The notes under the pieces: model-generated
The model's database searches: none
The model's input: only the letters and a program-made list of their open reading frames with translations
What the model was told of the DNA's origin: nothing
Assembly (NCBI GenBank): GCA_947169045.1
Contig: CAMVOC010000009.1
Span: 1 to 34,433, forward strand
Direction of reading: 5' to 3'
From: an uncultured bacterium
GTDB taxonomy: Bacteria > Patescibacteriota > Gracilibacteria > Absconditabacterales > Absconditicoccaceae
DNA length: 34,433 nucleotides
Part shown: positions 5,843-31,039 of the stretch, in pieces
Position numbering within the stretch: position 1 is the stretch's first letter
How the letters are laid out: each line of letters begins with the position of its first letter
Position numbers and translations under genes: made by a program

Positions 5843-8800
5843 TTATATATTGACAACGATTTTGATTAAACCACCAAGAAGAGATAGTACTACTGGAGCA
5901 GCTCCATGGTCTCTATACACATCGAGCGCTGTAGTAAAGTCTTCTGCACCTGGAGGCATTGTTCCTGCTCCAAAGACACTTGGTGCGTACTCGATGAGGA
6001 GGGAAGCTCCGTTCATCACTAAGTCTTGACGCTTTGAGATCTCTTCAGGGAAGGTTGAGAACCATCGATTGAGATTAGAACGTCTTGCGTCACTTACTTG
6101 TTCTAGAGATCCTGCAGTTTCTTCAATTACGACTCCTTTGATGTGGATATTTCCTCCAATACATCGTTCAGAATCACGTTCATTGTCATTTATCTTTCCA
6201 TTCGTTGATTCGAATTTGTTAGCATAAAGGATTCCTCTGATGATTTGTGGATTATCACATGTCTCAGAACCATCGAAAATGATTGTTCCTTTGGTCAGAA
6301 GCATCATATTGTTTTCTACATTTCCTTTGATTGTTGTGTTTCCTCTAGTTTGGACGATTGTGAATGGTTTCGCAGCAACCGTCGTAGTTAATGTTAAGTC
6401 TCCATCCACAAAGTAGATTTCTTTTCCTGGTACTTTTCTGACTTCTACGCTGGTAGCAAAGTTGCTTGGTGCATTCACTTTGATTGCTAATTTAGAGTAA
6501 TTATTGATGAATTTTGTGAGTGCGTCGCTTACCTGTGAAGTCGCTTTATAATCAGCATTACCTACTGATAAGATATCTTTGAGAATTCCTTCATTTCTTC
6601 CGAATAATTGTACTCCATCAATATTGTAGTATTTATCCAATTCCGTAGATGAAGCGGTAATATTTCCGGCTGGAGTTTTTTGTAAGATATAGTGGTCTGT
6701 AAGTGTGAAATCTACTTCACATACTCTTGGATATGGATCCATTTGTGTCCATACCTTAGCATCATTCTGTGGATCTTCTGGATCTTCAGGGATACATTGG
6801 AGATAATTTACTCTTTCTAGGACGATTTTGTATTCTCCTAGGATGTCAGTATTAGGATTATTTCCAAAGTTTGTTATCCATTCTAGATTAGATCTGAATT
6901 TAGCTCTGTGAGTATATTCTTTATCACTTCTAATATCAAATGATCGAAGGTTTTGATTGATTTTTTCTTCTCGTAAATTTGATATTAATGAAGGTACGTA
7001 GATTGTTTCTTCTTCTGCGAAACAAGGTACTTTACCTGATTCTCGGTATGGGTTTCCTGATAATTGACTATTTCTTGTTCCATTATAGATTGCGAATTCA
7101 CACGTCATTGCATTTAACGCGATATCTCCTACTGTATCACAAGAAGCTCCTTCTCTCGCGTTTCTATCATTTACGTAATGATCATCTCCTGCTTTCTCGA
7201 TATTTCGGAAGTAAGGTAAGATTTCACCCTTATTTAGAGAGATTGATCCATTATTTACATTGAAACAAGCGATTGGTTTGATTGGTTCTTGCGTTTCAAT
7301 TTTACAGTTTCTACAGATACCTCCGTTTACTCCTCCAGGGACTCTAGATGCGGTATCTGCCTTTGAGAGATCACACACTTTACTTCCTGAAAGTCCATCT
7401 CCACAATCACAATCTTCTCGCGCTTCAGCTTTTCCATCTCCACAATATCCGATTTCCATAATTTCGTTGATTTTTACTTCTGCGTCATCACAGTTTTCAC
7501 GGCTATTAGAACTATCTGTCCATGTAGGGAAATCTGGATGTGTAAGACATACTCGGTTTACAAGTGTTGCTTCGTCTTTATTATCTAGGACGTTATCATC
7601 GATTTTTGCTTCGAAGATAATCACGGCAGTTTCTCCTACTTCAAGAGTTTCTGTATATGTTCGAACGATTTTTGCACCTTGCACTGTAGCTGCAGTAAAT
7701 CCATCTCGAGAGCGAACTCCTTCAAAGCTAAGACCTGCTGGTAAGGTATCAGTTACCGTAAAGTTTGTCATAGCTTTATCTCCTCTGTTGGTTACTGAAA
7801 GCCTAAAGGTTACAATGTCTCCAGGAGCATATCCTGTTGATCCATTTCCTTCGATTTCCTTGGTAATAATCAGGCTTCCTGTCTGTTCTTTTAATGCAGA
7901 ACATTGCACTGCATTCTCTCCTTCTCCACAAATCCATGTTCGTCCTGTCGTACTTGACTGGATATTTGTTGCTGGATTTCCAGAAGGGATACAAAGCTGA
8001 TCTGCTGTTGGGTCTTCTGGAGGATTAAACGTACCTGTCAAGGTTCTTCCATCATATGCTGGATTACAGAGCACTTCATTTGGTTCGATGACTGTTACTA
8101 CTTCTGGATAACAGTTTTTCTCTGCAGTATATGCATTTGTTGTTGGCTGTCGCTCTGGGAAGTCTGGATGTGTCAAACATGCTCGGTTCTCCCAATCATC
8201 TTCTGTAGGAGAAACAAGAATTCCTCTTACTTCGAAATCAATATATACGGTTTCACCTGGGTTAAGAACTCCTTGATACTCTGCCCACGTTAACACATTT
8301 CCGTTTTGACTGAAGGCAAATAGTTCATGTCCTGCTACATTATCTACAAATTCCAATCCTTCTGGAAGCGTATCTGTAACTGTGAATCCTGTCATTGGAG
8401 AGGTTCCAAGATTTTGGATTCTTAACTGGAAGGTTGTCACTTCTCCGCTAGCAATAGTATTTTTTGCTCCTGGCTTCATCTCTTTATCAAATCCTAACAT
8501 TTTATCAAAGAGAATCGTGTAGACTGGAGTATTTTCACATGTTCTCGCTCGAGGCTGCTCTGGTTGGATTGCAACGCTTCCTGAGAAATGGATTTTTGCT
8601 AGGTTCAATGTTATATCTCGCCATCCTGAAGTTACCTTTCCGGTCAAAAGAAGATATCCTGAGGTATGCGCTGGAATCATAATATTATCTCGTGTATAGG
8701 TAGGAACTCCTCAAAGTTCTTCAAATCTATCATATACCCATTCAGCACTTACAAATTCAAGATTTTTTGGGAAGTAATCTCGGATTGAACCGGTCATATC

Positions 8801-11800
8801 TACTGTTCCATCGTTCCAGAATTCGATACGATATCCAATTTCCTCTCAGATTTTTACTTCTTTTTCTACTGAGCCATCTGTAAAGGTTTTTCTACAGTAG
8901 AGATCACCTGCTTCTTTCTGGATGATGTCATCGTCACAGATATCACTACCATCGACACAAACTACGTTTCTTGCTTCCTTTTTATTTGCATCCCATCGAT
9001 CTACTACGGTAAAGATTCTCATTTCAATCACGTCATTATTGAGTTCTCCTTGTACATCCCAGAATACTACTCCTGAATCTGTACGACCAGAAACTTTAGA
9101 ATTTCCGTAATCGATTTCGACAACGTTGATATTGTCTGGTTTTCTAATAATTTCAAATCCTGTATATACCAATTCTGCAGGGATGAAATCTTTAATTCCG
9201 AATCCCTCAGCGGTATTATTACCTGTAATGATAATTCTCCATGTTACCGTATCTCCAAGGTTCGTAAAGGTCTTTTGTTCAGCGATCTTTGAGATTAGTG
9301 CTTTTCCTACCAATGGATCTACTGGTTCTTTATCACAAACTTCGCTTTGTGTACCTGGATTTACACACACAACATTTCGAATCTTATCGAGAGGATCTGG
9401 CAATTTATCTACTTTGGTAAAGATTCTAATCTGAATCACATCTCCGCTCTGGAAGGCGTTTCCATCTTTAGTTTCTACATCAAAGTATAGCGCTCTTTCA
9501 TTTGTTTTTCTTACAGAACCTCCATTATTGTTCATTTCTCCTCCTCTTCGATCAACTTGTCGATCTACATCGTCTAACGCAGGATTGTACTGTACATTAG
9601 GATCATATGGTCTCTGATCGTTATTTGTAGTACCATTATTTCCAGCATTATCATTAGATTCAGCATTATTATTACTGTTTGTATTTGCAGATTGTTTTGT
9701 TGTACCTACTGATGTAAGCATTACTTTTGCATTACTTACTGTTGGTGGAGTTACTACTTCAAACTCTGGATCTATCAGTACTAATTCTACTGGAACCTGA
9801 TCTTCAATAGTAAATCCTGTTATTCCTTCTCCATTAACCGTTGCGGTAATCAACCAACTTATTTCATCTCCTACTTTACTATAATGATCCTTCTCTGCAT
9901 CTTTCACAATACTTACCTTTCCTATTTTTGGAAGGACAATAGCATCATCACAGTTTTGCGTTGGCGTTCCTGGATCAACACAGGCGATGTTTTGGATTTT
10001 ATCGAGAGGATTTGGTAATTTATCTACTTTGGTAAAGATTCTAATCTTAACTACATCTCCGCTCTGGAAAGCATTTCCATCCTTGGTCTCTACATCAAAA
10101 TATAAAGCTCTTTCTTTTATATTATTCGAAGAACTTCCATTATTATTCATCTCTACTCCTCTTCGATCAACTTGTCGATCTACATCGTCTAACGCAGGAT
10201 TGTACTGTACATTAGGATCATATGGTCTCTGATCGTTATTTGTAGTACCATTATTTCCAGCATTATCATTAGATTCAGCATTATTATTACTGTTTGTATT
10301 TGCAGATTGTTTTGTTGTACCTACTGATGTAAGCATTACTTTTGCATTACTTACTGTTGGTGGAGTTACTACTTCAAACTCTGGATCTATCAGTACTAAT
10401 TCGTCTGGAATCTGGTCTTCAATAGTAAATCCTGTTACGTTTTCTCCGTGAATTGTCGCAGTAATTAACCAGCTTATTTCGTCTCCTACTTTACTATAAT
10501 GATCTGTTTCTGCTTCTTTCACTACGTCAATTTCTCTATATTTATCTAAGTAGTGAGCTTCTGCAAATCCAGTTCCTCTACCACATTCAATGTTTTCATT
10601 TGCAGGATAATTCACGATATCGATTGCTGTCGTTGTATTTACTAGTGTTGGATTAGTAAGTGATTTTACCTTTGATTTTACAAAGAAGCTAAAGCTGTCT
10701 CCATCAACGAAGGTTGAATCTCCTCCAAAAATCCAATCTTTATCTGCGTTAAATCGGAAAACGATTTGGTCATCATTAGCATTTGTACTTACCTTTGTAT
10801 ATCCCATACATTTTTCGCGATTTGTACCTTGTCGAGAAATGTATTCAGAACCTGGAACTGCTCCAAACGCACAATCTCTAGGAGTACCGTAGATAGAAGT
10901 TGTCTCCTGCATCTTTACAAGTTCTACGAACTCTAATTCAGGAGGTAAGAGTTCTTGCATTTTGATAGCGTCTCCTATCGTACCATGCACTGTAACCTGA
11001 ACTCTCCATATCAATTCGTCTCCTATGTTTGTAAAGGAAGGAATTCCTTTTCCTTCTGGTCCTTCTCGTAAGGTCTTTTGAACTTCTAGGTATCCTCTTT
11101 CAAAAGGGATAGATGCCGTAGCAGTCAAAGAGCTAGGATCTGCTGCTGTCTCTCCTGATCTCACTGCATATCCTGTATTGAAGATAGAGAAGTTACAGCT
11201 CTTCATTGATTGTTTGTAGGCAAGGTTTTCTGCTACCATATCTACATAGATATGTACAGTTTCTCCATTATCAATCTCAGGAAGCGTACATACCACCATC
11301 TTATTTTCTAGTAATACGATACAACTATCAGATGCTCTTTCGCTTTTTGCACTAGCAATTACGAAACCTGCTGGAGCATAATCATAAATCTTATAATTCT
11401 TTGCTTTCTCTGGTCCATGTCCGGTAAGCGTCAATACCCAAGAAATTGTTTCTCCAGGGTTTGCAGCAGGATTTGAGTTTTCTGCTACTGTTTTGGAGAA
11501 TTCTAGGTTTACTGGAACACAACGTTCTGGATCACAACCTGCAGTTCCTCGGTTGGTCTGTGTAGGATCGTTAGGATCACATTGTTCTCCAAAATCAGTT
11601 ACTCCATTGAATTCATCTATTGGATGCTGACCATCAGAAAGTATTCCATCTCCACATCGACGAATGGCGTCTTTTACACATTCAATGATAGCTTTATCCT
11701 CTTCAGATCCGGAAGGTTTTTCGTCTGATGAGCTATATAATGTCAATGTTCTAAATTCATAATCAAAATTTGGAAGATATGTCGGATTCTTTGGGTGAGA

Positions 11801-12328
11801 TATTACGCGATAATTCGGTTGTGTATAATCAAATCCGTTAAAATTCTTAGGACTTAGCATTTTAGGCCAATCTTTATATTCGAATTCTGCTGGAGATCCT
11901 ATTTTTTCAGCAGTAGTCAAGTGAGTTATCGTTTGACCTGGAGCAATTTTCCAATTTAAGCCAGCTAATACTGGATAATCAAAATGTATCAACTTTGTTG
12001 TTTTTCCTGGATATTTCGTATTATTAAACGTGAGATATCCATTGTGCTCTACTTCAAAACGATTTTCGAAAAGATAGAGATCTCTGTTTGATCCATTCTT
12101 AAAGGCATCTACATATACATAGTATCGCCCGTTATATACTTCTCCACTTGTAATATGCGCACACTTTTCGGCAAATGGATTTGTAATTTCCGTTAGCGAG
12201 CTTACTTTGCATAGCTGCGATTGCCCGTTGTCTGTCTGGCATTCTTCGTAAGCAAGGCTCATGTTCATGCTTCGCATTCACAGAATTCCTACCGTAAGCA
12301 TTAGCCATTTTGAGAAAGGAGATTTCAT
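5843..12328 (-). CDS. giant secreted DUF11-repeat surface protein, 2161 aa
   Basis: Large extracellular protein, probably an adhesin or envelope-stalk protein. The N-terminus (MKSPFSKWLMLTVGILG...) is a signal peptide of about 27 residues. Several DUF11/conserved-repeat (beta-sandwich) modules follow, recognisable by FTVTDTLPEGLEFV and CLTHPDFP motifs. Two Cys-rich segments of the CGDG...CD type (DUF4215-like) lie near residues 222-256 and 1626-1677. Two near-identical 205-aa modules begin near 598 and 803, each with an Asn-rich linker; a third diverged copy begins near 1008. The last 450 residues contain beta-rich TIKGN/GTIIFDG repeats and end in a hydrophobic tail (LSLLGGLIKIVVNI). Only three TGA-Gly codons occur (12280, 8848, 8713); ignoring them splits the gene and hides the signal peptide. 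The start lies 40 bases after the upstream giant gene, so cotranscription is likely. Ligand and anchoring are unknown. Confidence 0.88.
9541..9787 (-). repeat. identical tract, copy A, within the DUF11 gene
   Basis: 247 bases identical to 10156-10402, at an offset of 615 bases (205 codons). The tract spans the Asn-rich linker and flanking strands of the second 205-aa module. Sequence outside the tract differs at several codons. Confidence 0.95.
10156..10402 (-). repeat. identical tract, copy B, within the DUF11 gene
   Basis: Partner of 9541-9787, encoding the linker of the first 205-aa module. The boundaries are sharp: immediately outside, GVEMNNNGSSSNNIKE in one module replaces GGEMNNNGGSVRKTNE in the other. 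Confidence 0.95.
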
Positions 12329-12368
12329 TGTAATTATAAATTAATAATTAAAATATCTAGTTTATTAT

Positions 12369-15300
12369 TTATCTTCCATCGGTACCACCAGCTTCACTGC
12401 TTCCCGTACCGCTACCAGAACCACTTCATGAGTCACCTTCACGATTATCGCTTCCTGATCCACTACCTTCGTCTCCTTCACGAACTTGTTCTGTGTCTCC
12501 ATATGCAGGGTCTGTCGTACCGAGTCATACCGTAGCGTTGAGAGATCTCACTGTTTTTTCTATGTTATTCTCTGTTTGCCTTGTATAACTAGATAAGTAA
12601 CGTTTTCATGGTTTTATTCAGCCTTCTTCTGTTGTTGTTATTTCTTCTGACACTGTTGTGGTAAGTCCTTCTATTCTAAATCCTACGGATTCATTCGCAC
12701 ACTCTCCTAGTAAATAGATGTACGTTGCTACTTGCAGACTATTTTTTCCTTCAGGATTTAAGGTGACAGTACCATTGTCAGCAATATCAAATTTCTCTCC
12801 TTTTAAGATCCTACAAAGGTTTTCTCAAGGTTTTTCTGGATCATCTGGAATTGTCACAGATTTGTTTGTATGCCTCTTTATAAGGTCTGATATTTTGGAT
12901 ACAATTTCAATTCTTCTCTGAACATCTTTCTCACTTTTCAATCCCATAACTTTTCCGTTTTTGTCTTGATACTCTCAGAAAAGGATATCTTGGGCCTTTT
13001 GGTAAGCATCACTGCCCGGAAGAAGTTCTTTTTCCACAATAATTCCTTCACCAATACGTTCATTCAACACACTCGTTCCTCCGAGACTTGTAGCTCCTAG
13101 TCCCGGAATTGTTCACTGTCTATAAAATGCTGAATATCCTATTAAAGATGAGTCTACTGTTCTCTGAATCGTTTCAGGCAGATGTTCTAATAATTCTTCA
13201 AATCAGAGATCTTGTAGCTCTTTTGGTATGTTTCTATGCTTTTTTACCTCTGTTTTAACTTCCTCTCCTGTGTTTAGAGATCTTGGGATTCTAGCAAATG
13301 CTTGTTGCATTCTATCGATAATTGTTTGTTTATCTGTGTCTGAGGTCTCTGATGAGTTGAGGGTATTTATTATTGCTTGAATGTTAGGTCTATACGTGTT
13401 AAGCCAGTTTTTTACTTGTTTTCTTACTTTCTGATCCAAGTTTTTAACCAATTTATCAGCCTGTTTCTCATCTACTGTCGATTGAATTATCGCTAGTAAT
13501 GTTTCTTTATTTGGCTCTTTCTTGAAGTTGTTATACAGTCATGTCTTGTTTGTCATTTGATCGATATATCCCAACAACATGAGATATTCTTGATTCTCTT
13601 GAGCTTCATATAAGTGAAGCTCTTTAAGTATTTGATTATCAAATTCAATTTTTTCTGTTATTGATAGCGGTTTCTCAACTATATCTGTTTTTGTTTTCAC
13701 TTCTCTTGGTTGTTCTGTACCAGATCCATAGAGTTCTGTTTTTCCTCCTTCATAATTTGTACCTTCTCCAAAGCGCAAAACATTTTTAACCCCCTCATTG
13801 GTTTTTGTCTCTTTAAACCTCATCATTGCACTGATAGGGATTTGCATTACTGCTTGATTCTCAATAAACTCTGGAGATTGGAGATTCAGATTTCCTTCTC
13901 GATTTCCTTTAACTTCACCTTTCATATCTTCAGCAAATTCGATACTAAGGATTCCTCCGTTTGCATTTGCTAACTTTCGTGGTACATTTATATAATCTCC
14001 GCTTACAGAAAGCTTTAAATTGTCAGGTAATTTATACGTATGAGTCGCTTCTAAACGACGATTGATGTAGGCAATGTAGTTTTCTGTAGGGATCTCCGCC
14101 ATATCTTCATATCCTATCATTGCTGCGTTATTCATATAGTCTTCCGCTACAGCTTCCGCAGTATCTTGATAGTGTAGATTAAGATATCTTGACTGTGTGT
14201 ATCCTAGTGATAATGTTCTAGGCGTAAAACTTCCAATAATCCATGACAATCCTATCTGTGCTCATGATGTATGCCAACCCTTGTCTACTAGCGTTGCATT
14301 ATCCTGATTTCTTCCATTTAAAATAAAATAACGTTTTAGATTATGTTTTACGAACTCCCATCTTTCAGCACTATTATCTCCAGCGATTGCTTTTTCTCCA
14401 TATGTTCTGAGAAAATTTATGATATTATCCGCAGCTTTTTGGGTATGTTCCGGTTTCGTATCATTAAATGCTTGGCTTAACGCGTCAATTAATGTACTTC
14501 TCGCAGCATTTTCTTCTCCTGGAGTACTATTGAGAAGTTCACTGAGTTGTCCTGCATTAAATATAGGGTCTAATACTTGATCCATTAAGTCTCCAAATCT
14601 CTGTTCTACTCCTGTCCATTTTTCTTCCACACCTGCAGCAAAATCTCTTACGTAATTTATGCCAGCGCTTAATACTCCAGGGAAGGAATATCCTACCGTT
14701 GCTTCGAGTGTATGCTTCTCTTCTACACCAAGATTATCAAGAGTTTTGTTAAGATCCTTACCTGCAGTTACTGCACCTCCTGCTGCTAGAATATCTTTTA
14801 TCGTTTTAGGGCTCTCAAGACCAACTGACGCACCAGCAAAAGCATCTCATCTAATTCTTCGTCCTTTTCCGAGATCAATATCTCCTGTAGATCGTCCTAA
14901 TCATAAATTAACACTAGGAGATCCGTTGGTCATCACAACATCACCATTAACATGTAGTCCTTCCAATATATTATCAAGGTTTGCTACTACTCCACCTATT
15001 CCTATTGAAAAGAAATCTTTATTTACTGTTTTTCCATCTGGCGAAAGAATTGGCTTTCCGCCTCTAAATAGAGAATTAGCAATTACTGCTGCTGTTTTCC
15101 CAAATATATAACGTTGTCGGTCGTCATCCATCTGGTCAAATTCTCTCCATCCACCAGTTTTTGGGTCAATAAATCCTAGCTCTTTAAGATGATCTACAAA
15201 AGCATAGAATTTCTTAGCTGTTCCTTCTTTCGCTTTTGCTTCGAGTTCTTTTCTTACGTTGAGAATGATACTTTTCCCTACTTTCTCTTTCTCTTTTAGG

Positions 15301-18300
15301 AGTGCTTCATATATCTCTCCGATTATCTCTTTCTTTTTTTCAACTGCTACGAGTTCATCTTCTAGAGCTTTAGCTCCCGCTTCATCTCCATATTGCAAAA
15401 TATATCTTGGATCATATCCTGTATGATACAAACTTTTTTGTACAACTAATAGACGGTAATAATCTCCTTTCATCCAGTTAAGGAATCCTTCTATATCTGT
15501 AGGAGGAAGATCATTTTCTTGTAACGTTTTATCCTGTTGTCTAACAAACTTTGCAATATTTTCTATCACTCTTTTTTCTCCTTCTGATCCTTCTTTAAGA
15601 GTAAAATAATCTGCCATCTGGTCAAGTAGCACTGGCAGCTCTTGTCCTTTATATGCAGACTTACCATCTGCATTATCTATGGTTGCATTAAGATCTATAT
15701 CTCCTATTAAAAAGCTGATTTTACGATATGCTGGTCGATCCTGAGGGATCCTTTTTTTAATAGCCTCAAATCTTGCTATTTTTTCAGCTGCCTTGTCTTC
15801 TGGGTCTTCAAGATGAGCTACGGAATCTTTAATCAACTTATTATATCCTTCTCATTCCTTAAATGGTTTCAATTCAGATTCTCGATCTTCTTCTTTTAAT
15901 TTTGGAGTATAGTTTTGTCGCATAATCTCCTTCAAAGATTTTGTCTCTAATTGTTGCAATAACAAAACGAGTCTCTGCGTATAATATTGTTCTTTGACTA
16001 CTCCAAGATTCGCGTCTGTAGAAAGATTATTCGCTACTTCATATTGAGCTCTTAACGCATCTCGAGCGACTCCTCCTCCTGATGAAGTATAGAGAATTCT
16101 CAGTGTTCATCAATCCTCACTTCTTATTTCTCTCTTGAATAATTTTGATTCATCTTCTGTCGCAAAGTCTCTTTTTGCTTTAGCTAATGCTTTTTCTCTT
16201 GCTTCCTCTTCTGTCATTTTTCCTAAATCATATGAATCGCCACTTTCATGATTTTCTGCATCAATGTTCGCTTTTAGTAACTTATACACTCCTGGCGCTG
16301 CTTCCTTTAGTTCATCAAACGTTTTTACCCCTTGTTTGAGTGAAGTAAATAGCACTTTAAGGTTTTTTTCTTGATAGTCTAATGCTTTAAATATTTTGCG
16401 CAGATTAGTGATTCCTTCTACATCGTTTACTCCTACTGCTTCTTCTGCTAAGAGTCCGTTATCCTCAAGTTTAATTGTTCTATCAGCTAGAGGATTTGCT
16501 CACAATCGCTTAAATCCTTTTGCTCGGATCTTCCGCCAAACTTCATTCCTTAAGTTTGTAATCTCATCCAGCCAATCGTTTGTACTTTTTTCAAAACCTC
16601 CTTCTAACTTAAGGGATGGTGTATTATGAAGATACATCTTCTGATCTTGAAATTTCCCTTCTTCATAAGCTGGGGTTTTGATTTGTTCTAATTCTGGTAA
16701 TTGTGGAACTTCGAAACTAAACGGTTCGAAAGGGAGTTTCTCATTTGTTTGAAGACTCAATTTTGGAGTCTCTACAGTAAATTCTGTTTTCGTTTCCTTT
16801 ACTGGGATGATATATTCGTGTATGTATTGTTCATGTACTTTATTTAGATAAGTTCAAGCTCCATATCGTCCATCAAGATCATGAACTGCACTAAATGGTT
16901 TTAAGTTCAATAATTTTTTTAATGTTGTCTTCTTTTTTCATATTGTTATCGTTCCTTTACTTTGATCTTCTATCGTCTTTTTCAAGTCGTTAAGGTCTTT
17001 TGCTAAGTCTGTGATCTTTTTCATTTCTAGGTTCGGTTCCGTTATGGTCCTTGCAAGTGTCTCTGATTTTTTCTGATACTCCTCATAGTTTTTTTTGAGG
17101 TTTGATATGTTTTGGTTTTCTATGGTTTTACCTGCCTCTTCCAATATTTTTATATTGTCTTCACATATTTTTGTTCACATGAAAAATTGTCCTGCTTGCA
17201 ACATTATTTGTCTCTCTGGCGTCACTGGTTCCTTAAATATCTTCAACGCTTCTGTTTCGTTCCAGTTTTTTCCGTACAAAGATTTTGCTTTTTCTTGATA
17301 AAATTCATTCTGACTGCTTATGTAATTCTTTGTATCCATTTGCAATATTCACGCATATTTTTGTTCCGGAGTTAGGTCTATTAATTTGTCATGCATAACG
17401 TCATAATGATCAATTGCCTCTACTATGACATATTTGTTTCCTTGCTGATCCTTCTTTGGATCTTTGTATTTTTCCTGCAGCTTACCTATCGTATTCGGAT
17501 AATAATTCTTGTAAGTTTCTGTTTTGTAATCCTTTCGATTAGGTTCAAATATTTTACGACCTTCATTATCCTCGTTCTTTTCGTCGTTATAATCGAATTT
17601 TTTGGTATGATATAGATTTTGATATTTATTAATTCTATCGTATACATATACCCAATCTAGAGTACTTACGTTTTTGGTTCCTATCCCCTTACTTTTGATG
17701 ATTATATAGTCGTCACTTCTCCGCGCTTCGTGGGCATCCGGCCAGTTTAGTCCTTTTCCTTTTGGGAACTGTATTTTTCATATGAGGGCTTGAATATCTC
17801 CCTCATTTTTATCTACTTTCGTAAATTGTTGCTTTTGTAGCTCAGAATAGTCCAATTCTGGTCTTTCATGCTCTACTCTCTTACTACTATCTACTCCTGT
17901 GGTTTGTAAGTCATTTAATTTCTCTTTCTTATTCCCATTTATTTTTAAATTACCATCCTTATAATTGATGTTTGGATTCTCTCCATAGTTAATATTTTGT
18001 TTCCCTTGTATCAAAAAAGATATAATATCTGGCGATAAAGCTGTTAGATATTCTTGAACATCTCATCATCCAGTTGATGAGATGAAATCTTTAACATATG
18101 TTTCTATCTCTTCATTTGTAGGAGTATTATTGTTATCCTCCCAAAACTTTTTAAACCCTGAGCTGTTTAAGAACTCTTTTAATTTACGACCAGCAGTATT
18201 ATTTATATCACTAATATATTTATTCAGCTCATTGTTCTTATTATTATTTACATTGCTCTGTTCGTTTATCTCTGTTATTATTTTCTCTCCATTTTCGTTA

Positions 18301-19016
18301 TATGTTTTAATCTCTGTTTCTAATTCCATTAATTTTTTATTTAACTCTTCCGCTTTGGTATTATAATTTTTTATCTGTGCATTTAACGCTGCAATCTCGT
18401 CATTTGTTAGAGAAAGTTCTTGTTTCTCAAATTTTCTTAATTTCTCCCTATATTCTTCTCATTGTTCCTTTATTTTTTGATATTCACTTCCTTCAGAGAA
18501 TTCGTTTATTCTCTGTTGTAGCTCTGTTTTCTTACTTTCGAGCTCTCATAACTTTTGGCTTTTCTCTTTATCGTTTTCTCATAACTTCCCTTTTATATTA
18601 GCTCGCAACATTGGTATTTCTTTTTCTTCTTTGCTTCCAATTTTCGCTAAAAAATCGTTTTGCGTCTTTGGTAAAAGATCTACTAATACAGGCTTTGGTG
18701 TCTCGTTATTCTCTACGTGTTCTTTTTTAACTCTAATTTTACAACCATCAGATAATGTTAGATATTTCTCACCAGTATATCAATCAGGTTGCGGAACATC
18801 ATTCCATCAGTCAATGGTCTTAGCACTGTTTCGCTTTATTTCTCGTTTCTTTTCTGCTCACCCTTCACCAACATTCCGCTTCTGAGCTTCAATCATTCCT
18901 TGCGCTGACAATCTCTTAGCGATTTCTGTAGGATCAAGAATTTCTAGCTCAGGGAAGAGGTCATTATTCAGTTCCACATTAGCTTTCTTGTTCTCTTGAG
19001 TGTTTAATTTAACCAT
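12369..19016 (-). CDS. giant protein of unknown function, 2215 aa
   Basis: I do not recognise this protein. One frame stays open from ATG at 19016 to TAA at 12369 once about 29 TGA codons are read as Gly; I checked every gap for TAA and TAG. There is no signal peptide (MVKLNTQENKK...). Residues about 120-330 are charged and coiled-coil-like; 400-950 are charged and helical. Residues about 1330-1620 have short Gly-rich alternating strands (for example SVNLGLGRS, EATVGYSFPGVLSAGINY, GLSWIIGSFTPRTLSLGY) reminiscent of beta-barrel strands. The rest is helical, and the C-terminus is a Gly/Ser-rich tail (GSGSGSGTGSS). It lies 40 bases upstream of the DUF11 giant and downstream of the cell-wall-binding genes. 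Two successive genes of similar giant size suggest partner proteins (inference). There is no Shine-Dalgarno. Confidence 0.85.
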
Positions 19017-19049
19017 TGTTACTACTATAAGATATAAAACACATTAAGT

Positions 19050-19078
19050 ATATTACATCTTCTATTTTTTTGCACGAA
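19050..19078 (-). promoter_or_regulatory. weak candidate promoter of the two giant genes
   Basis: On the minus strand TAATAT (19055-19050) lies 33 bases before the ATG of the 2215-aa gene. A poor -35 (TTCGTG, 19078-19073) sits 17 bases upstream of it. A separate promoter is expected because a terminator lies just upstream at 19184-19208, but the -35 match is weak. Confidence 0.3.
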
Positions 19079-19105
19079 TATTATCTATTTGGATATGATA
19101 TTTAC

Positions 19106-19135
19106 TTGACTTTTGTAAATTATTTGATATATGAT
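19106..19135 (+). promoter_or_regulatory. plus-strand promoter in the giant-gene leader region
   Basis: TTGACT (19106-19111), an 18-base spacer and TATGAT (19130-19135). It reads away from the giant genes and towards a short ORF with a Shine-Dalgarno at 19165. Everything else from 5.8 to 27 kb is on the minus strand. Its transcript would run antisense into the 19248-19892 gene unless it stops in the hairpins at 19193-19232. Confidence 0.5.
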
Positions 19136-19164
19136 ACGTTTAGTTTGATGGAAGGAGAGAAAGA

Positions 19165-19236
19165 ATGCTGAATGGTGGTTTTTTAAAAAAATCCCCGCGT
19201 AAGCGGGGCAAGCCTCCTTTATCAAGGAGGCACTAG
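19165..19236 (+). CDS. possible 23-aa small ORF overlapping a palindromic repeat
   Basis: ATG at 19165 is preceded by AAGGAG (19152-19157) at good spacing, about 30 bases after the plus-strand promoter at 19106-19135. The 23-residue product is basic (K, R and P rich) and is encoded mostly by the palindromic repeat itself, ending in TAG. It is one of the few clear Shine-Dalgarno sequences in the window. It could be a leader peptide, a small RNA region, or chance. Confidence 0.25.
   Translation: MLNGGFLKKSPRKRGKPPLSRRH
19184..19208 (-). terminator. Rho-independent terminator of the PG-binding/LRV operon
   Basis: On the minus strand CCCCGC-TTAC-GCGGGG (19208-19193), followed by A and a run of T. 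It lies about 40 bases after the TAA of the 214-aa gene. It separates that operon from the giant genes. Confidence 0.75.
19189..19232. repeat. palindromic intergenic repeat, copy 2
   Basis: Two adjacent hairpins: CCCCGC-GTAA-GCGGGG at 19193-19208 and GCCTCCTT-TATC-AAGGAGGC at 19211-19230. The first shares CCCGCGTAAGC with the element at 5639-5706. Both copies border the block that carries the giant genes. Confidence 0.6.
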
Positions 19237-19247
19237 GGATGTATGGT

Positions 19248-19892
19248 TTAGATTCTTTCTAATGATCCTAGCCAATCAATCAAATCTCATGGATCTATAT
19301 CTTGAAATCTTTCGATTCTTTTTTCTGCATCTGATTTTTCCTCATCTTCTGGGTCGGTTGTTAGATTTGGAATCTTTTCTGTGGTGATTTCAGTTTTTTT
19401 TTCTTGTTTTTCTTTTCTTATTGATTTTTGAGTCCACGTTTGTGCAGGTTGAGTTTGTAATTTAATGCTTTGTAATCCTTGAAATGTTTCGCGTCATGCT
19501 ATTCCATCAATGGCAAGTGGGTATCCTTGCTTTAGGATCTCTTTTTGTAGCTGTTTTACATCTCGTTTGGTCATGCTATTTTCTCTGATGAATTGTTTGA
19601 GCTCTTTGAGCGAACTTACTGTTTGCATCTCGGACATCAATTGTTGGACGCGTTCTTTTTGTTGCAGTAAAAATCCCAAGGTATCTGCTTTCGCCTCTAT
19701 CTTTCTCCACGTTTTTGGTCCAATGATTCCATCAATCTCTTTCTTATTTCTTCCCCATACAAATTTTTGAAGCGTTATTTTATCAGTACGAGACATTCTG
19801 CGGTTTGCCATCTGGTAGCTCCCTTGCAAAAACGCCTCTTTTACTAGTTCTTCTCCCTGAGATTGATATTGTTTTTGTTGCTCGATTGACAT
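19248..19892 (-). CDS. peptidoglycan-binding-like domain protein, 214 aa
   Basis: Residues about 38-70 match the peptidoglycan-binding (PGB1-type) pattern: LQKFVWGRN, a spacer, then DGIIGPKTWRKIE. A charged helical region follows, then a second DG motif (LAIDGIAG, Gly by TGA at 19496-19494). The C-terminal 75 residues are rich in Lys, Glu and Thr and look disordered, ending in DWLGSLERI. There is no signal peptide. TGA also encodes the Gly of the last DPGD. Its start lies 25 bases after the LRV gene, so it closes that operon ahead of the terminator at 19184-19208. The wall-binding role is inferred from the motif only; no catalytic domain is visible. Confidence 0.75.
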
Positions 19893-19917
19893 GTTGATAA
19901 AAAATATTTAAAAAAGA

Positions 19918-22248
19918 TTATTGTTCTTTTCGTAACCCTCTCTTTTGTAATATCCCTTTCCCTTTGTATGGCTTATCCCGTCAGTATACTCCCAACTGAT
20001 TGATTACTTTAATTAAAGCTTCTATTACTTCAGAATCTGTTTCTTTTTTGCAGAAATCCTCGAGTAGCGGTGTTGATTCATTGTTCTCTATTACTGCTTT
20101 ACGAATTTTTGGATCCTGGCTTTTGCTATATACTGTTAAAATATTAATGTCCTTACTGTTCTTAACATCTTCTACGGTTGGATTCTCTAACGGCTTTTCT
20201 CCTCAGTTCTTCACCTCGCTCGTAGCTGATGGAGCGGTCTCTTGAGACTTACGATCATATGAGGTGATATTCTCTTGGCCATCGAAGTTATAATGGTCTT
20301 CAGCTATTTTTGGGGAAATTGTCGTTATTGTTTTCATTCATCCTCGTTTCTTTTCGTTCTTAGCTATATAATCTTCTGCTGCTTTTTTTTCGAAAAATAT
20401 CCCAGCGTATGCGTTTTCTCAAGTTTGTCGAGCATCTATGCCTTTGTCCTTTCTATATTTTGTATCTAGGTCTTTCCAATAACCATTCCTTCCAATCTGG
20501 ATAGCTCGAATCGTTCCTCCTCGCTCTTTAATATTCTCCTTCGTTATTATGAAATCGCTCTTTTCTTTTTCTTCTCACTTTTTATTTGTATCAGATTTTT
20601 TTTCTATTGTTACTGGTTCTTGTGTGGTAGAAGAAGTAGTATACGCATCGAGAAGTTCTTTTGATTGATCTTTTGATTGATTTTTCGTGTTTTGTGATTT
20701 GTCTAAGTCAGTTGATGTTTTGTTTGGAGTTTCTTGCTGAGCTTCTTGCGTTTGAAGTGCTTGCTTTTGAGCTGCTTCTTGGGCTTGGAGGGCTTTAAGT
20801 CTGGCTTGAGCCTCCTTTTTAGTCTCAGTCTGCTCACCAACGTTTTTATTGTTAACTATGGCTCCTAAAACCTGTTGAGTAATTCACTCTCACTTATTCT
20901 CGGTCAAGATTTTCAAAATATCTTGATTTTCCTTTTTTGCAAGGATTAAAGCCACGTCTTCAGTGATGCCTTGATTTGCAGCTAGACCTTTTGGAAGATC
21001 TAGTTTACTAATCCAATATTTGTTATTCTTAGCAAAATCGCTTAATATCCTTGGAGGTGTACTAGGATTTGTTGCTAAAGCGTTACACATTTTTCTGGCT
21101 ATTCATTTGTCACTATAGTTCTTGTATAGTTTATATACATTAGTTAGCCGATCCTCTTCAGTATTAGGATTACTTGCAATATTTTCCATAATATTAATCT
21201 CTATGTCTGATTTCTCTCACTTTGATCCAATCTGATTCATTATTTTATCTAATATCCATGACGGAGTTGATGAGTTGGCTGAAATTGCTCGCCAAACCTC
21301 AAGTTTTTTGTCCTCTTTGTAAAAAATATAGTCCTTATTTTTGTATATTTTGTTTATAATATTTGTATATGTGGTCATTTGTGCTATCATTTTAACTGTA
21401 TCGTCAGATTTGTTTTTATTTCACAATACTCAAGATTGTACTTTTTCTTTTCCTTTTTTAGCAAGTTCCTGTAGCAAGTTATCGTTCACGCTCTGATTTT
21501 GAGTGAGATTGTACCGAATATCTTCACACCAGCTTTTCTTGTCTCATCTGTTTATGTCGTACTCCACAAGATACTCTAAGATTTTTTTCTCTGTTTGAGT
21601 TTTTGCTACTCTTTCTGTAGCTTCTTTAGAGATATTTTGATGTCCCAGAGCTTTTAGAATTTGTTTTTCCTGTTTGGCTTTTAGTAGAACATTGTCTAAA
21701 GCTTCTGCTGGTGTAGTACTATTATTTATTAATGCAAATATTAGTTTCACGTCGTTAGCTTCTAAATTCTCTGAAAAAAAGATAAGCCATTCAGGATCTG
21801 TATCTTCTGCCACCATATCCGCCCAATTTTCTTTTTCTCAAAGTAAGAGATTCTTAGTGCTTTGATTTATACCATTCTGATTTATTTCCTGAACTTTCAA
21901 AAACATATTCCCATTTTTATCTGATATGAGATTAAATTGGTACAGATCAGTTTTATAAGAATTGTTGTTACTATTGAATGATTGTAAGATACTCTCCCGC
22001 TCTTCGTCGTCCAAACTCGAGATGTATTTTTTCATAACTTTTTTTACATCTTCTGTGTTATTTACCGGTTCTTTTTGGAGTTCTATTATTCCCTCTCACC
22101 CTTCACCATAAAACGTTGTAGCATCTTTCGCGATATCTACTAATTTCGGCATACTCACTTTTTCTAGCTCCTCAGCTAGAAATCCTTTGGTAAGCTCTTT
22201 GTCTTCCACTCTGGTTTGAAGTTTGTTTAGGGAAGTTGTACTTTTCAT
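19918..22248 (-). CDS. LRV/HEAT-like repeat protein, 776 aa
   Basis: Contains helical repeats of the leucine-rich-repeat-variant type, such as ISANSSTPSWILDKI, ATNPSTPPRILSDFAKN and AANQGITEDVALILAKK. They are spaced about 30-35 residues apart near residues 320-440, with related units near 170-220 and 710-746 (KAVIENNESTPLLEDF). A Gln/Ala/Lys-rich low-complexity linker covers about 455-530. A compact segment near 560-620 (IQIGRNGYWKDLDTKY, YAGIFFEKKAAEDYI) is unassigned. There is no signal peptide. About a dozen in-frame TGA codons read as Gly, several in GG or GEG contexts; standard translation leaves only fragments of 66-90 aa. The gene sits between the PGB/NPGN gene (37 bases upstream) and the 214-aa gene (25 bases downstream). 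Such repeats usually mediate protein contacts; the partner is unknown. Confidence 0.8.
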
Positions 22249-22285
22249 GGTGAATTAGGGTAAACTGATAAAATGTTACTAACGC

Positions 22286-23185
22286 TTATGCTCTTTTACT
22301 TTTGGCCACTCCTTCGGTGATTCCTCTATCATTTAGGAGTTGGTACATCTTGTGATCTTCATATCTTGCAATCCATTCTGCAATATATTTCGTTGGGATG
22401 TCTTTCACTGGAAGTGTATTCCATAATTGCTCGGCTTCTTGTGCTGATTTTCCCATACTTCTGAGCACATTTTTTGCCCAGTTTTTATATCCTGCTACTT
22501 TTTCTTTCACGATTCTACCTTGTGTCCATACGCAACGTATTTGTGCAAGGCTTTGTTCTGGATTGTAACGTTTTGACTCTCAGCTTTTTATCTTATCGAT
22601 TTGATCTAGCATTGCTTGATATCCTTTCTCTGGTGAAGAAAAGACTCCGTATCTACTTTTACTTTTCCCTAAATCTCCAGGAGATCTCATATTTCCTGGG
22701 TTATAATTAGAGATTGCAGCGGTAGATCCGTATTTTTTCTTGTCGGCAGCCAACTGTTTTTCGTATGCTGTCCTTTCTTGCGCGCTAAGCGTTCTTCCTG
22801 TTTCTCAAAACTCTTTATATCAAAGGCTGATCCATTTCTCTTTTAGTTTTGCAAATGATTTTGGTCCAAATTTTCCATCAACGGCTACTCATAAATATTT
22901 TTGAAATTCTTTCACTCTTTTTTCGTTTTCTTTCCCTGCTCCAAACAGCTTTTTTATCTTTTTTGGAGAAAACATCTTTTGTTCATAGAGATATTGCACG
23001 AGTCCTTGCATATCATCTTTGTAGTGTTCTAGTTCCTGCTTTATATTCTTGATCTGGATATCGCTCGTCAATAAGGCGAGATCCTCGTTTTCTTGCTGCC
23101 AATTGGGTGCGTCCAAGGTCTCCTCATTGAGGGAAAGGACCTCCTCCTCTGGCATTTCTTGCTCTGTTACTGCTATTTCGCTCAT
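22286..23185 (-). CDS. PG-binding-like plus NPGN lysin-like protein, paralogue 2 (299 aa)
   Basis: The N-terminal 50 residues are acidic, without a signal peptide. Residues about 72-120 form a PGB1-like domain (KRVKEFQKYLG then VDGKFGPKSFAKLKEKW). Residues about 160-215 carry NYNPGNM and YGVFSSPEKGYQAML, a pattern seen in phage virion and lysin-type proteins (NPGN ... FavF.sPe.G..A). The C-terminal third is helical. TGA encodes the Gly of YLGVAVDG, SLGYKEFGE and IKSGES. It is the first gene of an operon with the LRV and 214-aa genes and has a near-consensus promoter at 23222-23250. It is a close paralogue of the gene at 23360-24268. Cell-wall binding is likely; lytic activity is inferred only from motif similarity. 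Confidence 0.8.
22488..22653 (-). repeat. identical tract in the paralogue pair, copy A
   Basis: 166 bases identical to 23598-23763, at an offset of 1110 bases. The tract covers the end of the NPGN domain and the linker (VFSSPEKGYQAML through KEKVAGY). Just outside it the paralogues are roughly 80% identical. Confidence 0.93.
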
Positions 23186-23221
23186 GTTGTTGTATAAGTT
23201 ATAAAATTAAAACACCTTCTT

Positions 23222-23250
23222 ATTATACAAAAAAAACAAAACTTTGTCAA
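23222..23250 (-). promoter_or_regulatory. consensus sigma70 promoter of the PGB/NPGN-LRV-PGB operon
   Basis: On the minus strand TTGACA (23250-23245), a 17-base spacer and TATAAT (23227-23222): a perfect match, 37 bases before the ATG at 23185. The upstream flank (TTTCAAACGCCGAAATT) resembles that of the paralogue's promoter at 24306-24334, so the promoter was duplicated with the gene. Confidence 0.85.
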
Positions 23251-23359
23251 ATTTCGGCGTTTGAAATTTTGTTGGGGGAAAGCTTTTGCATACGTAAAAA
23301 CAGCATTGTGGTAGGGTTTTCCCCTAGATTTCCAACAATACTGCTCGTAGTCCTTGTTT

Positions 23360-24268
23360 CTACTGGTATTTTTTATTTCTATTCATTCTATTTCTTCTTC
23401 TGACTTCACTTTCTGCTAGGGATTTGGCGATTCCCCTATCATTCAACAAATCGTACATTCTTCCATCTTCTGCTAGAGCAATTCCTTCGGCAATATATTC
23501 CGTTGGGATGTCTTTAATTGGAAGTGTATTCCATAATTGCTCGGCTTCTTGTGCCGTTTTTCCCATACTTTTGAGCACATTTTTTGCCCAGCTTTTGTAT
23601 CCTGCTACTTTTTCTTTCACGATTCTACCTTGTGTCCATACGCAACGTATTTGTGCAAGGCTTTGTTCTGGATTGTAACGTTTTGACTCTCAGCTTTTTA
23701 TCTTATCGATTTGATCTAGCATTGCTTGATATCCTTTCTCTGGTGAAGAAAAGACTCCGTATCCTTTACTACTTCTTCCCAGATCTCCATTACATTTCAT
23801 ATTTCCTGGGTTATAATTACATACTGCGGCAGTAGCTCCGTACTTTTTCTTATCGGCTGCTAATTGCTCTTCGTATGCTGTTTTCTCTTGCTGAGTAAGC
23901 ACCTTTCCTGCTTCTCAAAAGTCTTTATATCAAAGGCTGATCCATTTTTCTTTCAGTTTTGCAAAAGATTTTGGTCCAAATTTCCCATCGACGAGCGTTC
24001 CAATATATTTTTGGAATTCTTTCACTCTTTTTTCATTTTCTTTCCCAGTTCCAAACAGCTTTTTTATCTTTTGGTGAGAAAACATTTTTTGTTCGTAGAG
24101 GAATTGTGCCAATCCTTGCATATCATTCTTGTATTTTTCCAGTTTCTGTTTGATATTCTTGATCTTAATGTCTGTCATCAACAGGGTCTCCTGTTTCTCC
24201 TGTTGCTGCCAACTAGGAGTATACAAGGGATTTCTCTCTTTTCCTGAAAGTAAGTCTGTTTTATTCAT
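23360..24268 (-). CDS. PG-binding-like plus NPGN lysin-like protein, paralogue 1 (302 aa)
   Basis: Same architecture as the gene at 22286-23185. The N-terminus is short and polar without a signal peptide. The PGB1-like domain lies at residues about 62-110 (KEFQKYIG, VDGKFGPKSF). The NPGN motif is near 153-157, followed by YGVFSSPEKGYQAML and a helical C-terminus that ends in a basic tail. It differs from its sister by Cys residues flanking NPGN (VCNYNPGNMKCNG) and in the last 30 residues. ATG at 24268 was chosen because the open frame further upstream runs through the promoter. The stop is TAG. It has its own promoter at 24306-24334 and stands alone upstream of the sister operon. Confidence 0.8.
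23598..23763 (-). repeat. identical tract in the paralogue pair, copy B
   Basis: Partner of 22488-22653, 100% identical over 166 bases with sharp edges. Confidence 0.93.
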
Positions 24269-24305: not shown

Positions 24306-24334
24306 ATGATACTCCAAGAGAGGCGTTTTGTCAA
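24306..24334 (-). promoter_or_regulatory. promoter of PGB/NPGN paralogue 1
   Basis: On the minus strand TTGACA (24334-24329), a 17-base spacer and TATCAT (24311-24306), 37 bases before the ATG. The spacing to the ATG is the same as at the sister promoter 23222-23250. Confidence 0.78.
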
Positions 24335-28826: not shown

Positions 28827-29138
28827 TTACGCAGAGACTGTGGCATCTTTAATCCATGAAGCAAGCACTTGTTTTGTGGCTTCGTGTAACAGCGTAACGT
28901 ATTTAGGAACCAGATAAAAAAGCTGAGGTTCCAACTCCTCTACATCGATTTCTTCTGGGTCAGAAATAGCAAGCTGTGCGACTTGTTCTTCAGTAAGCAC
29001 GTCGAGGAGCTTTTCCTGAAAAGCTAGGGAAATACTATCTTTGAGTGCTGCGACTTCTTCTGGGGAAATTTCAGCTTTTTGTCGCTCCTGTCGTTTATGC
29101 AGAGCGTAAGCTTGAGCTTCTTTAATCGTATCGATCAT
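28827..29138 (-). CDS. hypothetical helical protein, 103 aa
   Basis: Not recognised. Mostly helical and charged, starting MIDTIKEAQAYALHKRQERQKAE, with an acidic middle (DPEEIDVEELEP) and a hydrophobic C-terminal helix. Its ATG overlaps the TAA of the upstream coiled-coil gene by one base (TAATG), a classic translational-coupling arrangement, so the two probably work in fixed stoichiometry (inference). Confidence 0.75.
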   Translation of the reverse strand: MIDTIKEAQAYALHKRQERQKAEISPEEVAALKDSISLAFQEKLLDVLTEEQVAQLAISDPEEIDVEELEPQLFYLVPKYVTLLHEATKQVLASWIKDATVSA

Positions 29139-30067
29139 TATTTTCTCGTTTTGTTACGATATAAATCTGCCTGCACTTTTGCGAGATAGTCGGATCTGAT
29201 ATTGTCCAAATGTCTAAGAATATGAGCTTTCAATCCTGCTTTATATCGGCTATCTTTCTCGGAAATAGTACATCTTTCTTCGATTGCCTGGAGATGCTCT
29301 CCTATGGTATGATTAGCAAATATATTTCCTCATTTGAGCTGATTTTCCTTGGCAATTTTGAGAACTCTTTTCCCTCCTCGTGATTGAGTCATCTTGGAGA
29401 GATATGTAATTGCGTTACTAGGATATTCCTCAGGATGTTCTTGTTTACATTTGATAATCTGATCATCAATCTTTCTTAGCGCTCTCACTTCAGAAAAAGG
29501 AAGAAAATCTCTCAACTTTGGATTAGGTCCTCTCAACTCTATTTCCTCGAGTTTTTTCTTAAGTTTTGCGTTACGTTGCGCTTCAGCTTTTTCAAATGCA
29601 GCTTTATATTTGGATTCTGCAGCTTGTTCAGCTTTTTGTGCTCCTCTTTTTTTGTATTCTCGGAACTCTTTTGCTATCTCATCTCTCTCTTTCGTCCTTT
29701 TGGCTTTTAAATTCGCGATTTCTCCGTCTTTTTCTTTTTTCGTGTCATTCAATGCTGCCATCAAATCTGCTATTTTTTTATCTTTTTCCGCTTGTAGCTT
29801 CTGATCTTCCTTTCGTTTCTCGGACATTTGTGTTTTCGCTTCGGACATCTCCGTATCCACTTTCTTTAAAAAGGCTTCGAGTAGTTCTTGACGCTCTTCT
29901 TTAGACCTTCCTTCATCAAGAATCGCTCTGATGATCTGTTCAACTTTATCAGAAGTTGTATCTACGGCCGTACCGTCCGGTGAAACTGTGGATTCCTTCA
30001 TGTTTTTTGGAATTAGTATTCCATTTTTCATTTCTCGTTGATCTGAGGAAGTTGCTAATCTCGCCAT
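29138..30067 (-). CDS. coiled-coil protein of unknown function, 309 aa
   Basis: Not recognised. The N-terminal 50 residues are polar. Residues about 60-175 are a long Lys/Glu/Ala-rich coiled coil. The C-terminal 130 residues are probably globular (NPKLRDFLPFSEVRALRKI, CKQEHPEEYPSNAITYLSKM). Reading TGA at 29332-29330 as Gly adds 64 residues, up to TAA at 29138. This extension produces the one-base stop/start overlap with the next gene, which supports it. There is no signal peptide or membrane segment. It is transcribed from a promoter at 30098-30126, divergent from the acidic membrane protein. Confidence 0.8.
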
Positions 30068-30250: not shown

Positions 30251-31039
30251 ATGAACACTAAAGATGAACTACTAAAAATTATTCAAGATGTACATGCTGA
30301 GGATTTGCATCGCCATTATCATCCTGAAGAAGTCCATGAACATGCTAGCATCTCTGCGCTTAACGTTAGTCCTCCTGTAATAGATGATTTTCATCAGGTA
30401 TCCCCTTCCAATTTGCATGAAGGCGTCGAACGTCCTTATTCTTCTGATGAAGTCGATGATGAGGAAGTGTACGATGATGAAGAAGCCTACGATGAAGAGG
30501 AAGATTGTGAAGAAGCAGACGCTTTTGATGAAATATCTGAAGAAGACGACGATGCTTATCAAACGGATACTTCACTGGTTGACCCTCCAGATCCGGAGAC
30601 TCCTGCTGAAGAATATCATTTCCCTTGGAGATGGGTCGTTGGACTACTTCTCCTTCTCCTCTTATTCTTGCTTGTGATTGGTCCTCTAGGATATCTCACT
30701 GAAGAAGTCCTCACCAGCAATAGGACAGAAAAAAAGGTTGATCACGCCATAGGAGTCGTTGAACAAACCGTCGAAAAAACGGATCAATTAGAGAAAAAAG
30801 TTGACGCCCTGGTTGAGCAATCAGAGACAACGATGCGTGTGGTTTCTTCCATGAGAGGAGACATTGCCACCTTACAGGCAGAGCAACATTTGATGCATAA
30901 AAAGCTGAATAGGCATTCACGACACCTTACTACCATCGAATCTCGTAGTACTAGTGCTCCAAGAGTAGAATTTCATAGCAATGTGCATGCCGATCAAGCT
31001 ACTAATCTTAGTTCTAGTGTCGATTTTAAGACGTATTAA
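30251..31039 (+). CDS. acidic single-pass membrane protein with coiled-coil stalk, 262 aa
   Basis: Not recognised by family. Residues 18-31 are His-rich (HRHYHPEEVHEH). Residues 65-105 are almost all Asp and Glu. One strongly hydrophobic helix runs from about 128 to 148 (WVVGLLLLLLLFLLVIG). A heptad-like coiled coil follows at about 155-220 (VEQTVEKTDQLEKKVDALVEQ), then a Ser/Thr-rich tail. The likely topology is a cytoplasmic acidic head and an outer stalk, though orientation is not proved. There are no TGA codons. A single-gene unit with a clear promoter and terminator. Confidence 0.85.
   Translation: MNTKDELLKIIQDVHAEDLHRHYHPEEVHEHASISALNVSPPVIDDFHQVSPSNLHEGVERPYSSDEVDDEEVYDDEEAYDEEEDCEEADAFDEISEEDDDAYQTDTSLVDPPDPETPAEEYHFPWRWVVGLLLLLLLFLLVIGPLGYLTEEVLTSNRTEKKVDHAIGVVEQTVEKTDQLEKKVDALVEQSETTMRVVSSMRGDIATLQAEQHLMHKKLNRHSRHLTTIESRSTSAPRVEFHSNVHADQATNLSSSVDFKTY

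Follow-up and report, generated by a model that had tools for sequence, protein, structure and literature searches.

Giant proteins, among them DUF11 proteins, have been reported from Vampirococcus, where they probably attach to hosts according to the accessible part of the account (PMC8080830). The DUF11 giant treated here, encoded in a stretch of 34,433 nucleotides from an uncultured bacterium of the Absconditicoccaceae (contig CAMVOC010000009.1 of assembly GCA_947169045.1, hereafter the window), is of the same kind as those reported for Vampirococcus lugosii in the available sections of this source and stems from the same clade (PMC8080830). The same sections deal with the giants singly and deduce their membrane location, whereas a signal-less protein family and a fixed pairing, as presented below, are not described in them (PMC8080830). 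Two-partner secretion (FhaC/TpsA) resembles the present locus in its adjacent genes for a protein with a beta module, here possibly barrel-like, and for a very large secreted surface protein. Nevertheless, the giant adjoining the DUF11 protein in the window lacks a signal peptide as well as POTRA and TpsB-barrel matches in Pfam, and its DUF11 partner has no Pfam match to the TPS domain. An identity of this giant as TpsB was rejected, as the Sec signal peptide, POTRA and barrel typical of TpsB were not found and no Pfam match exceeded the cut-off. Type I secreted giant adhesins (LapA/RTX) are similar in their giant size, the missing N-terminal signal peptide and the Gly-rich C-terminal tail, and a motif resembling calcium-binding ones adds a likeness that is found in relatives of the giant. 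Regarding RTX repeats, no hemolysin-type calcium-binding Pfam match was obtained for the window giant or 25 relatives, and no exporter genes (ABC/MFP) were identified among the window neighbors by reading translations.

Organization of the Gene Block

Intact genes are obtained in the window only with translation table 25 (TGA = glycine), table 11 breaking the frames. Translated with code 25, six minus-strand ORFs extend between uvrC and rpoA (5843–24268), with uvrC, argS and aspS on one flank and rpoA, rpsD, rpsK and rpsM on the other, all identified by reading translations. This confirms the arrangement given in the initial annotation of the sequence, i.e., six genes on one strand flanked by housekeeping genes. 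As the ribosomal and rpoA genes share the strand of the block, the single-strand layout alone is not special. The block comprises the following features:

5843–12328, minus strand: DUF11 giant, predicted to be secreted (2161 aa)
12369–19016, minus strand: giant without signal peptide or transmembrane segment (2215 aa), belonging to a giant family specific to the lineage
19193–19231, minus strand: double-hairpin intrinsic terminator between the four small genes and the giant pair
19248–19892, minus strand: 214-aa protein without signal peptide, with two peptidoglycan-binding-like segments
19918–22248, minus strand: 776-aa protein without signal peptide, with weak LRV-like repeats
22286–23185, minus strand: lysin-like paralogue B (299 aa), with a peptidoglycan-binding-like segment and a putative lysozyme-fold domain of the Enc34/PHA02564 type
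23222–23250, minus strand: sigma-70-type promoter, 12/12 consensus, 17-nt spacer
23360–24268, minus strand: lysin-like paralogue A (302 aa), architecture as in B
24306–24334, minus strand: sigma-70-type promoter, 11/12 consensus, 17-nt spacer

Both promoters are located in short gaps, TTGACA-17-TATCAT (24334–24306) preceding the gene of paralogue A, the start of which was set at the ATG downstream of this promoter, and TTGACA-17-TATAAT (23250–23222) preceding that of paralogue B. The window features four sites with at least 11/12 matches, including these two, and simulated sequence contained about 1.4 such sites per window, with a 12/12 site arising in none of 60 simulations. The terminator, situated 3' of the 214-aa gene, comprises two hairpins and a subsequent run of T, with –27.4 kcal/mol and z = –5.2. 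Thus, the two strong promoters and the terminator ahead of the giant pair that had been noticed previously were both borne out. The position of the terminator makes two transcripts most likely, one for the four small genes and a second for the two giants, and the block is therefore likely to represent two transcription units.

The share of TGA among glycine codons is uneven across the block, rising from 2% (3/166) in the DUF11 gene through 17% in the gene of the neighboring giant to 35% in the LRV gene, which suggests different codon histories or expression levels. In the vicinity of rpsM, two small coiled-coil-like genes and an acidic protein with a single transmembrane segment occur (28827–30067 and 30251–31039).

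The DUF11 Partner Protein

The partner protein reaches 144.1 bits with PF01345 in five stretches and 153.9 bits with TIGR01451 in seven stretches; its membership in the DUF11/B_ant_repeat families is based on multiple DUF11 domains above the curated cut-off, and these domains are of the DUF11/isopeptide Ig-like type. A signal peptide is recognizable by eye at the N-terminus (MKSPFSKWLMLTVGILGMRSMNMSLA), but this stretch does not reach a crude hydrophobicity cut-off, which is exceeded in most relatives of the partner. Of the giant secreted DUF11 protein assumed in the initial annotation, the DUF11 assignment is accordingly strong, and the secretion depends on a signal peptide read by eye. Two further regions are conserved, namely an N-domain (aa 53–270; match of the window protein E 4e-60), which ends in a Cys-rich CGDG..E.CD motif, and a C-domain (about aa 1606–2139) with the family end ..IEYSP..PPGA..F....Y. 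The relatives stop right behind a YR/YK stretch. The window protein continues for 22 residues past the family end with a hydrophobic tail (DHGAAPVVLSLLGGLIKIVVNI; 5843–5911), an extension unseen in the relatives. It also carries a tandem duplication of 205 aa (9303–9602 and 9918–10217) with 83% identity and Asn-rich linkers, which looks recent. Two genera encode the partner in three separate genes, which correspond to the single gene of the window; this split is a hint that the pieces may work together with one another.

The Signal-Less Giant

The adjacent giant of 2215 aa features a helical-looking N-terminal half of low complexity, a conserved core (about aa 1096–2180) that includes an amphipathic beta module at about aa 1300–1750, a degenerate EF-hand-like motif and a Gly/Ser-rich C-terminal tail. 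Neither a signal peptide nor a transmembrane segment was detected by a simple hydrophobicity test (not SignalP), and an in-frame stop is found nine codons 5' of its start. Likewise, no convincing missed signal peptide was found upstream of the starts of the giants, though a few relatives have hydrophobic stretches there. No credible match of the window giant to Pfam, NCBIfam or PHROG was obtained, and the family profile gave only chance-level hits against PDB sequences. For the core, no relatives were found in viral contigs, and a structure search against BFVD was not significant.

The identity between the window giant and its relatives is only 14–23%, and the part common to the most distant giants is the amphipathic beta-rich module. 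An AlphaFold core model of the relative L088 is of low confidence (mean pLDDT 59, strands mostly 70–85) and shows seven strands of 10–16 residues each within residues 154–474, most of them alternating between hydrophobic and polar residues. The closest structures in VIA-align are mostly outer-membrane barrels with Z values of 7–8, which is background level according to the tool's own note, and Foldseek against the PDB gave nothing significant for this model. A barrel-like nature of the module may hence be taken as a lead only.

Clear PG_binding_1 domains are present in the relatives L182, L195 and L198 (43, 54.9 and 88.8 bits). In the window giant, a weak and degenerate peptidoglycan-binding-like segment at about aa 700–735 aligns with such a motif in the relative L050, and neither the whole protein nor this candidate segment gave a PG_binding Pfam hit above the cut-off. 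Of 20 PG_binding_1 proteins inspected in these genomes, 14 begin with a signal-like N-terminus, which makes the signal-less ones a minority. Three such signal-less proteins from different genomes (L098, L109, L113) share the N-terminal pattern [DE]WV..QV or a similar one. Furthermore, the motif [DN][NYW][VI][KR]D[IL] was found within the first 40 aa of 11 of 46 giants (L052, L053, L054, L055, L056, L062, L069, L070, L072, L078 and L144) and in none of 475 other proteins. In some members of the giant family, it may act as a targeting signal; as it is missing from the window giant, it does not represent a general export signal. In the available part of the literature, export is predicted for numerous proteins of a Gracilibacterium that lack signal peptides (PMC6851277). 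Some giants of a sister family (L197, 8794–12075; L184, 9672–12926; L188, 4709–8347) have long low-complexity C-terminal repeats (DTPE, PSQDK), which may be compared with those of a hypervariable gene with PTD repeats from a Gracilibacterium, as far as the consulted sections of the publication describe it (PMC6851277).

Conservation of the Giant Pair

In the window, the giant lies upstream of the N-domain gene on the same strand with a gap of 40 nt, and it fits the family profile. The same constellation, i.e., a giant without signal peptide and transmembrane segments upstream of a DUF11 partner on the same strand, was found in 33 of the 49 genomes of the order, each genome being represented by a single locus and the partner being recognized by its N- or C-domain. 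This number includes L082, in which the giant is split or interrupted, and L085, with a run of N in the contig. The records of the relatives are mostly named candidate division SR1, Absconditabacteria, Gracilibacteria or uncultured bacterium, and include the complete RAAC1_SR1_1 chromosome. The giants of the order mostly comprise 1,400–2,350 aa and adjoin the partner or are separated from it only by its split parts. By similarity alone, few relatives of the window giant were revealed at first, the others emerging from a positional search. An iterative profile built from the window giant recruited 20 of the positional giants and one giant fragment at a contig end without any reversed decoy, and the unrecruited positional giants of the order that were tested matched the family profile in profile–profile comparisons with E values of 1e-15 to 1e-34, reversed controls remaining unmatched. 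Four very long proteins have the C-domain without the N-domain, and none of them has an upstream giant, i.e., the N-domain tracks the giant. One of these four is a secreted paralogue of 3909 aa, which the genome of the window itself encodes on another contig (L049, 2619–14348 on contig C4 of G000).

Two families other than that of the window also yielded the N-domain in a class-wide search, namely in 23 of their genomes. The loci of 21 of these genomes were read, one of which ends at a contig edge, leaving 20 testable loci. At 19 of them, a frame of 686–1,853 codons lies upstream on the same strand, either adjoining or with one gene between; the sole exception is G138 (L190) with an N-domain-like protein and no upstream giant. 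A profile derived from two sister-family giants collected 15 proteins below the threshold, all in giant position and distributed over three families, and no decoys. The giants L182 and L187 of family f22 were recruited by profile. No profile similarity to the giants of the order was found for L186, L192, L194 and L201 of f22 or for L195 and L199 of f14, so that their membership in the pair is based on position only. In 15 of the 21 sister-family loci, the upstream region encodes a short protein, the tail of which resembles an LPxTG membrane anchor; this fits a surface context. In-frame TGA codons in the matches from f14 and f22 suggest that both families use the UGA = glycine code as well. Beyond them, a phylum-wide sample of 379 genomes gave an N-domain match in the genome of the window and none in the other 378; the pair thus looks confined to the UGA-glycine clade. 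The giant and its DUF11 partner are encoded together and retained together across this clade.

The Four Small Genes

The lysin-like paralogues A and B are 76% identical, and each combines a weak PG_binding_1-like segment with a C-terminal domain of lysozyme-fold type, by which their earlier description as two wall-binding, lysin-like paralogues is substantiated. Through intermediates, the C-terminal domain is related to phage endolysins of the Enc34 type (PHA02564; PDB 7q47). The domain matches relatives from SR1 genomes in profile–profile comparison (hhalign 99.3%, E 2.5e-20), and these in turn match PDB 7q47 (E 6e-7) and PHROG 873 (E 9e-20). The matches of the relatives include endolysins and tail-injection transglycosylases of PHROG as well as PDB 9vvp. 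The Enc34 endolysin is a muralytic enzyme with lysozyme fold, the catalytic Glu131 of which is located in the last helix, as stated in the accessible part of its description (PMC8943055). Near the expected place, a Glu is kept in the stretch A..EDG..Y or A..EDH..Y of the paralogues, and this residue may be catalytic; the match to 7q47 ends at residue 116, short of Glu131. The paralogues differ from the phage enzymes in that the ENxT stretch of the latter is not recognizable in the window proteins and a phage context is missing here. An AlphaFold prediction for paralogue A from two sequences reached a pLDDT of 42, so that the assignment of the fold rests on sequence. Among the genomes of the order, the C-terminal domain occurs in four others, elsewhere and mostly within larger signal-less proteins. 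No relatives of paralogue A were found in the viral contigs and phages searched.

The 214-aa protein scores 25.9 bits with PG_binding_3 and has endolysin matches in PHROG; its gene was matched in one other genome only (G036), at two unrelated places. The 776-aa protein features four to five NxSTP-type motifs, in line with the LRV-repeat scaffold supposed in the initial annotation, but its LRV match (PF25591, 17.2 bits, E = 0.005) lies below the cut-off of 27 and the label is weak. In the order, none of the 48 other genomes contains a match to its gene. None of the four proteins has a signal peptide, and the genes do not co-occur with one another elsewhere among the genomes of the order. In G036, which belongs to the same genus as the bacterium of the window, the giant directly follows rpoA at a distance of 365 nt. 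With the LRV gene unmatched and the 214-aa gene found in G036 only, the four small genes do not form a conserved unit with the giants. The synteny check that had been suggested for all six genes hence fails for these four, which are absent or located elsewhere in relatives, but gives a strong result for the two giants. The whole block as one conserved six-gene system was rejected, since the four genes do not co-occur and the terminator splits the block.

Possible Functions of the Pair and Its Neighbors

According to the reading favored here, to which slightly less than even confidence is assigned, the block consists of two units with the giant pair as its core, in which a giant reaching the wall by a non-Sec route and a Sec-exported DUF11 protein would make up a surface structure directed at the host. 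The partner would leave the cell via Sec by means of its predicted signal peptide and form a long Ig-like surface protein, as suggested by the DUF11/isopeptide domains. The upstream giant is its dedicated companion, as shown by co-occurrence and same-strand adjacency across the clade, and its non-Sec route to the cell wall is deduced from the clear peptidoglycan-binding domains of relatives. The amphipathic, possibly barrel-like beta module of the giant and the conserved ends of the partner could then build one surface structure, most likely used for attachment to, or exchange with, host cells. Host contact is plausible in view of the surface-type domains, the restriction to the lineage and the remarks on Vampirococcus in the available text of PMC8080830. 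The four small genes would stand apart from the pair as a strain-specific set for wall-binding and lysin-like proteins without signal peptides, which may share the wall-directed task of the pair or be unrelated neighbors. Against this reading, the signal-less giant may simply be cytoplasmic, the peptidoglycan-binding-like segment of the window giant is weak, the structure model is of low confidence with no significant Foldseek hit, and the near-universality of the pair in the order could likewise reflect a general role in the envelope.

Such a role constitutes the main rival explanation and is considered somewhat unlikely. The pair would form a coat that all cells require, either resembling an S-layer or spanning the wall, instead of a host-specific device. 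This agrees with the occurrence of the pair in the majority of the genomes of the order and in many from two sister families as well as with its housekeeping neighbors, such as yidC, RNase J and rpoA. Nevertheless, so low an identity of the window giant to its relatives would not be typical of a merely structural coat, and the lifestyle published for the lineage is host-dependent in the accessible reports. For the small genes alone, a phage origin of paralogues A and B and of the 214-aa protein, which would then be lysis or ejection proteins left behind next to rpoA, is doubtful. The missing signal peptides and the matches of related domains to phage endolysins, tail-injection transglycosylases, 7q47 and 9vvp would fit this origin, but no phage structural genes are among the identified neighbors, paralogue A is unmatched in viral contigs and phages, and the domains reside within larger proteins in four other genomes.

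The helical-looking, low-complexity N-terminal half of the giant and its lack of a signal peptide or transmembrane segment would also suit an intracellular scaffold, in which the giant remains inside the cell and cooperates with the surface adhesin from the cytoskeleton or the membrane, by analogy with a terminal organelle of the Mycoplasma type. This is rather improbable, considering the clear peptidoglycan-binding domains of relatives and a beta core that is amphipathic and not a coiled coil. Even less credence is given to a delivery of the giant to the host, where its beta module would insert into the outer membrane and serve as a conduit. The outer-membrane barrels among the best VIA-align matches and the alternating strands would speak for it, as would the Gram-negative hosts reported for two relatives in the parts of the literature at hand, but Z values of about 8 or less are background, Foldseek was not significant, and the model is likewise compatible with beta sandwiches or lipid-transfer barrels instead of a closed barrel. 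Finally, a single host-contact island of six genes is highly improbable and as a conserved unit largely refuted by the missing co-occurrence of four genes in relatives, the intervening terminator and the giant directly behind rpoA in G036, even though the genes are contiguous on one strand and wall-binding segments occur together with missing signal peptides in three of them and, in weak form, in one more.

The favored reading of a wall-located giant and a DUF11 surface protein may be extended to a so far undescribed two-component system of UGA-glycine bacteria, in which the barrel-like module of the wall-bound giant would assemble with, or give passage to, a secreted DUF11 stalk and the bacteria would use the resulting structure to hold and feed on their hosts; in this specific form, it is regarded as unlikely.

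Concluding Remarks

DUF11 giants were already known. The paired giant family and its lineage-wide as well as lineage-restricted conservation appear to be undescribed, no description of such a pair having been found in the accessible literature on DUF11 or giant proteins in these lineages, which included few subscription papers. The pair offers a concrete and testable candidate for the attachment and feeding of ultrasmall host-dependent bacteria in this clade, and its locus is usable as a marker for the UGA-glycine lineage. Moreover, it poses the puzzle of how a giant whose relatives bear wall-binding domains would exit the cell without a signal peptide.
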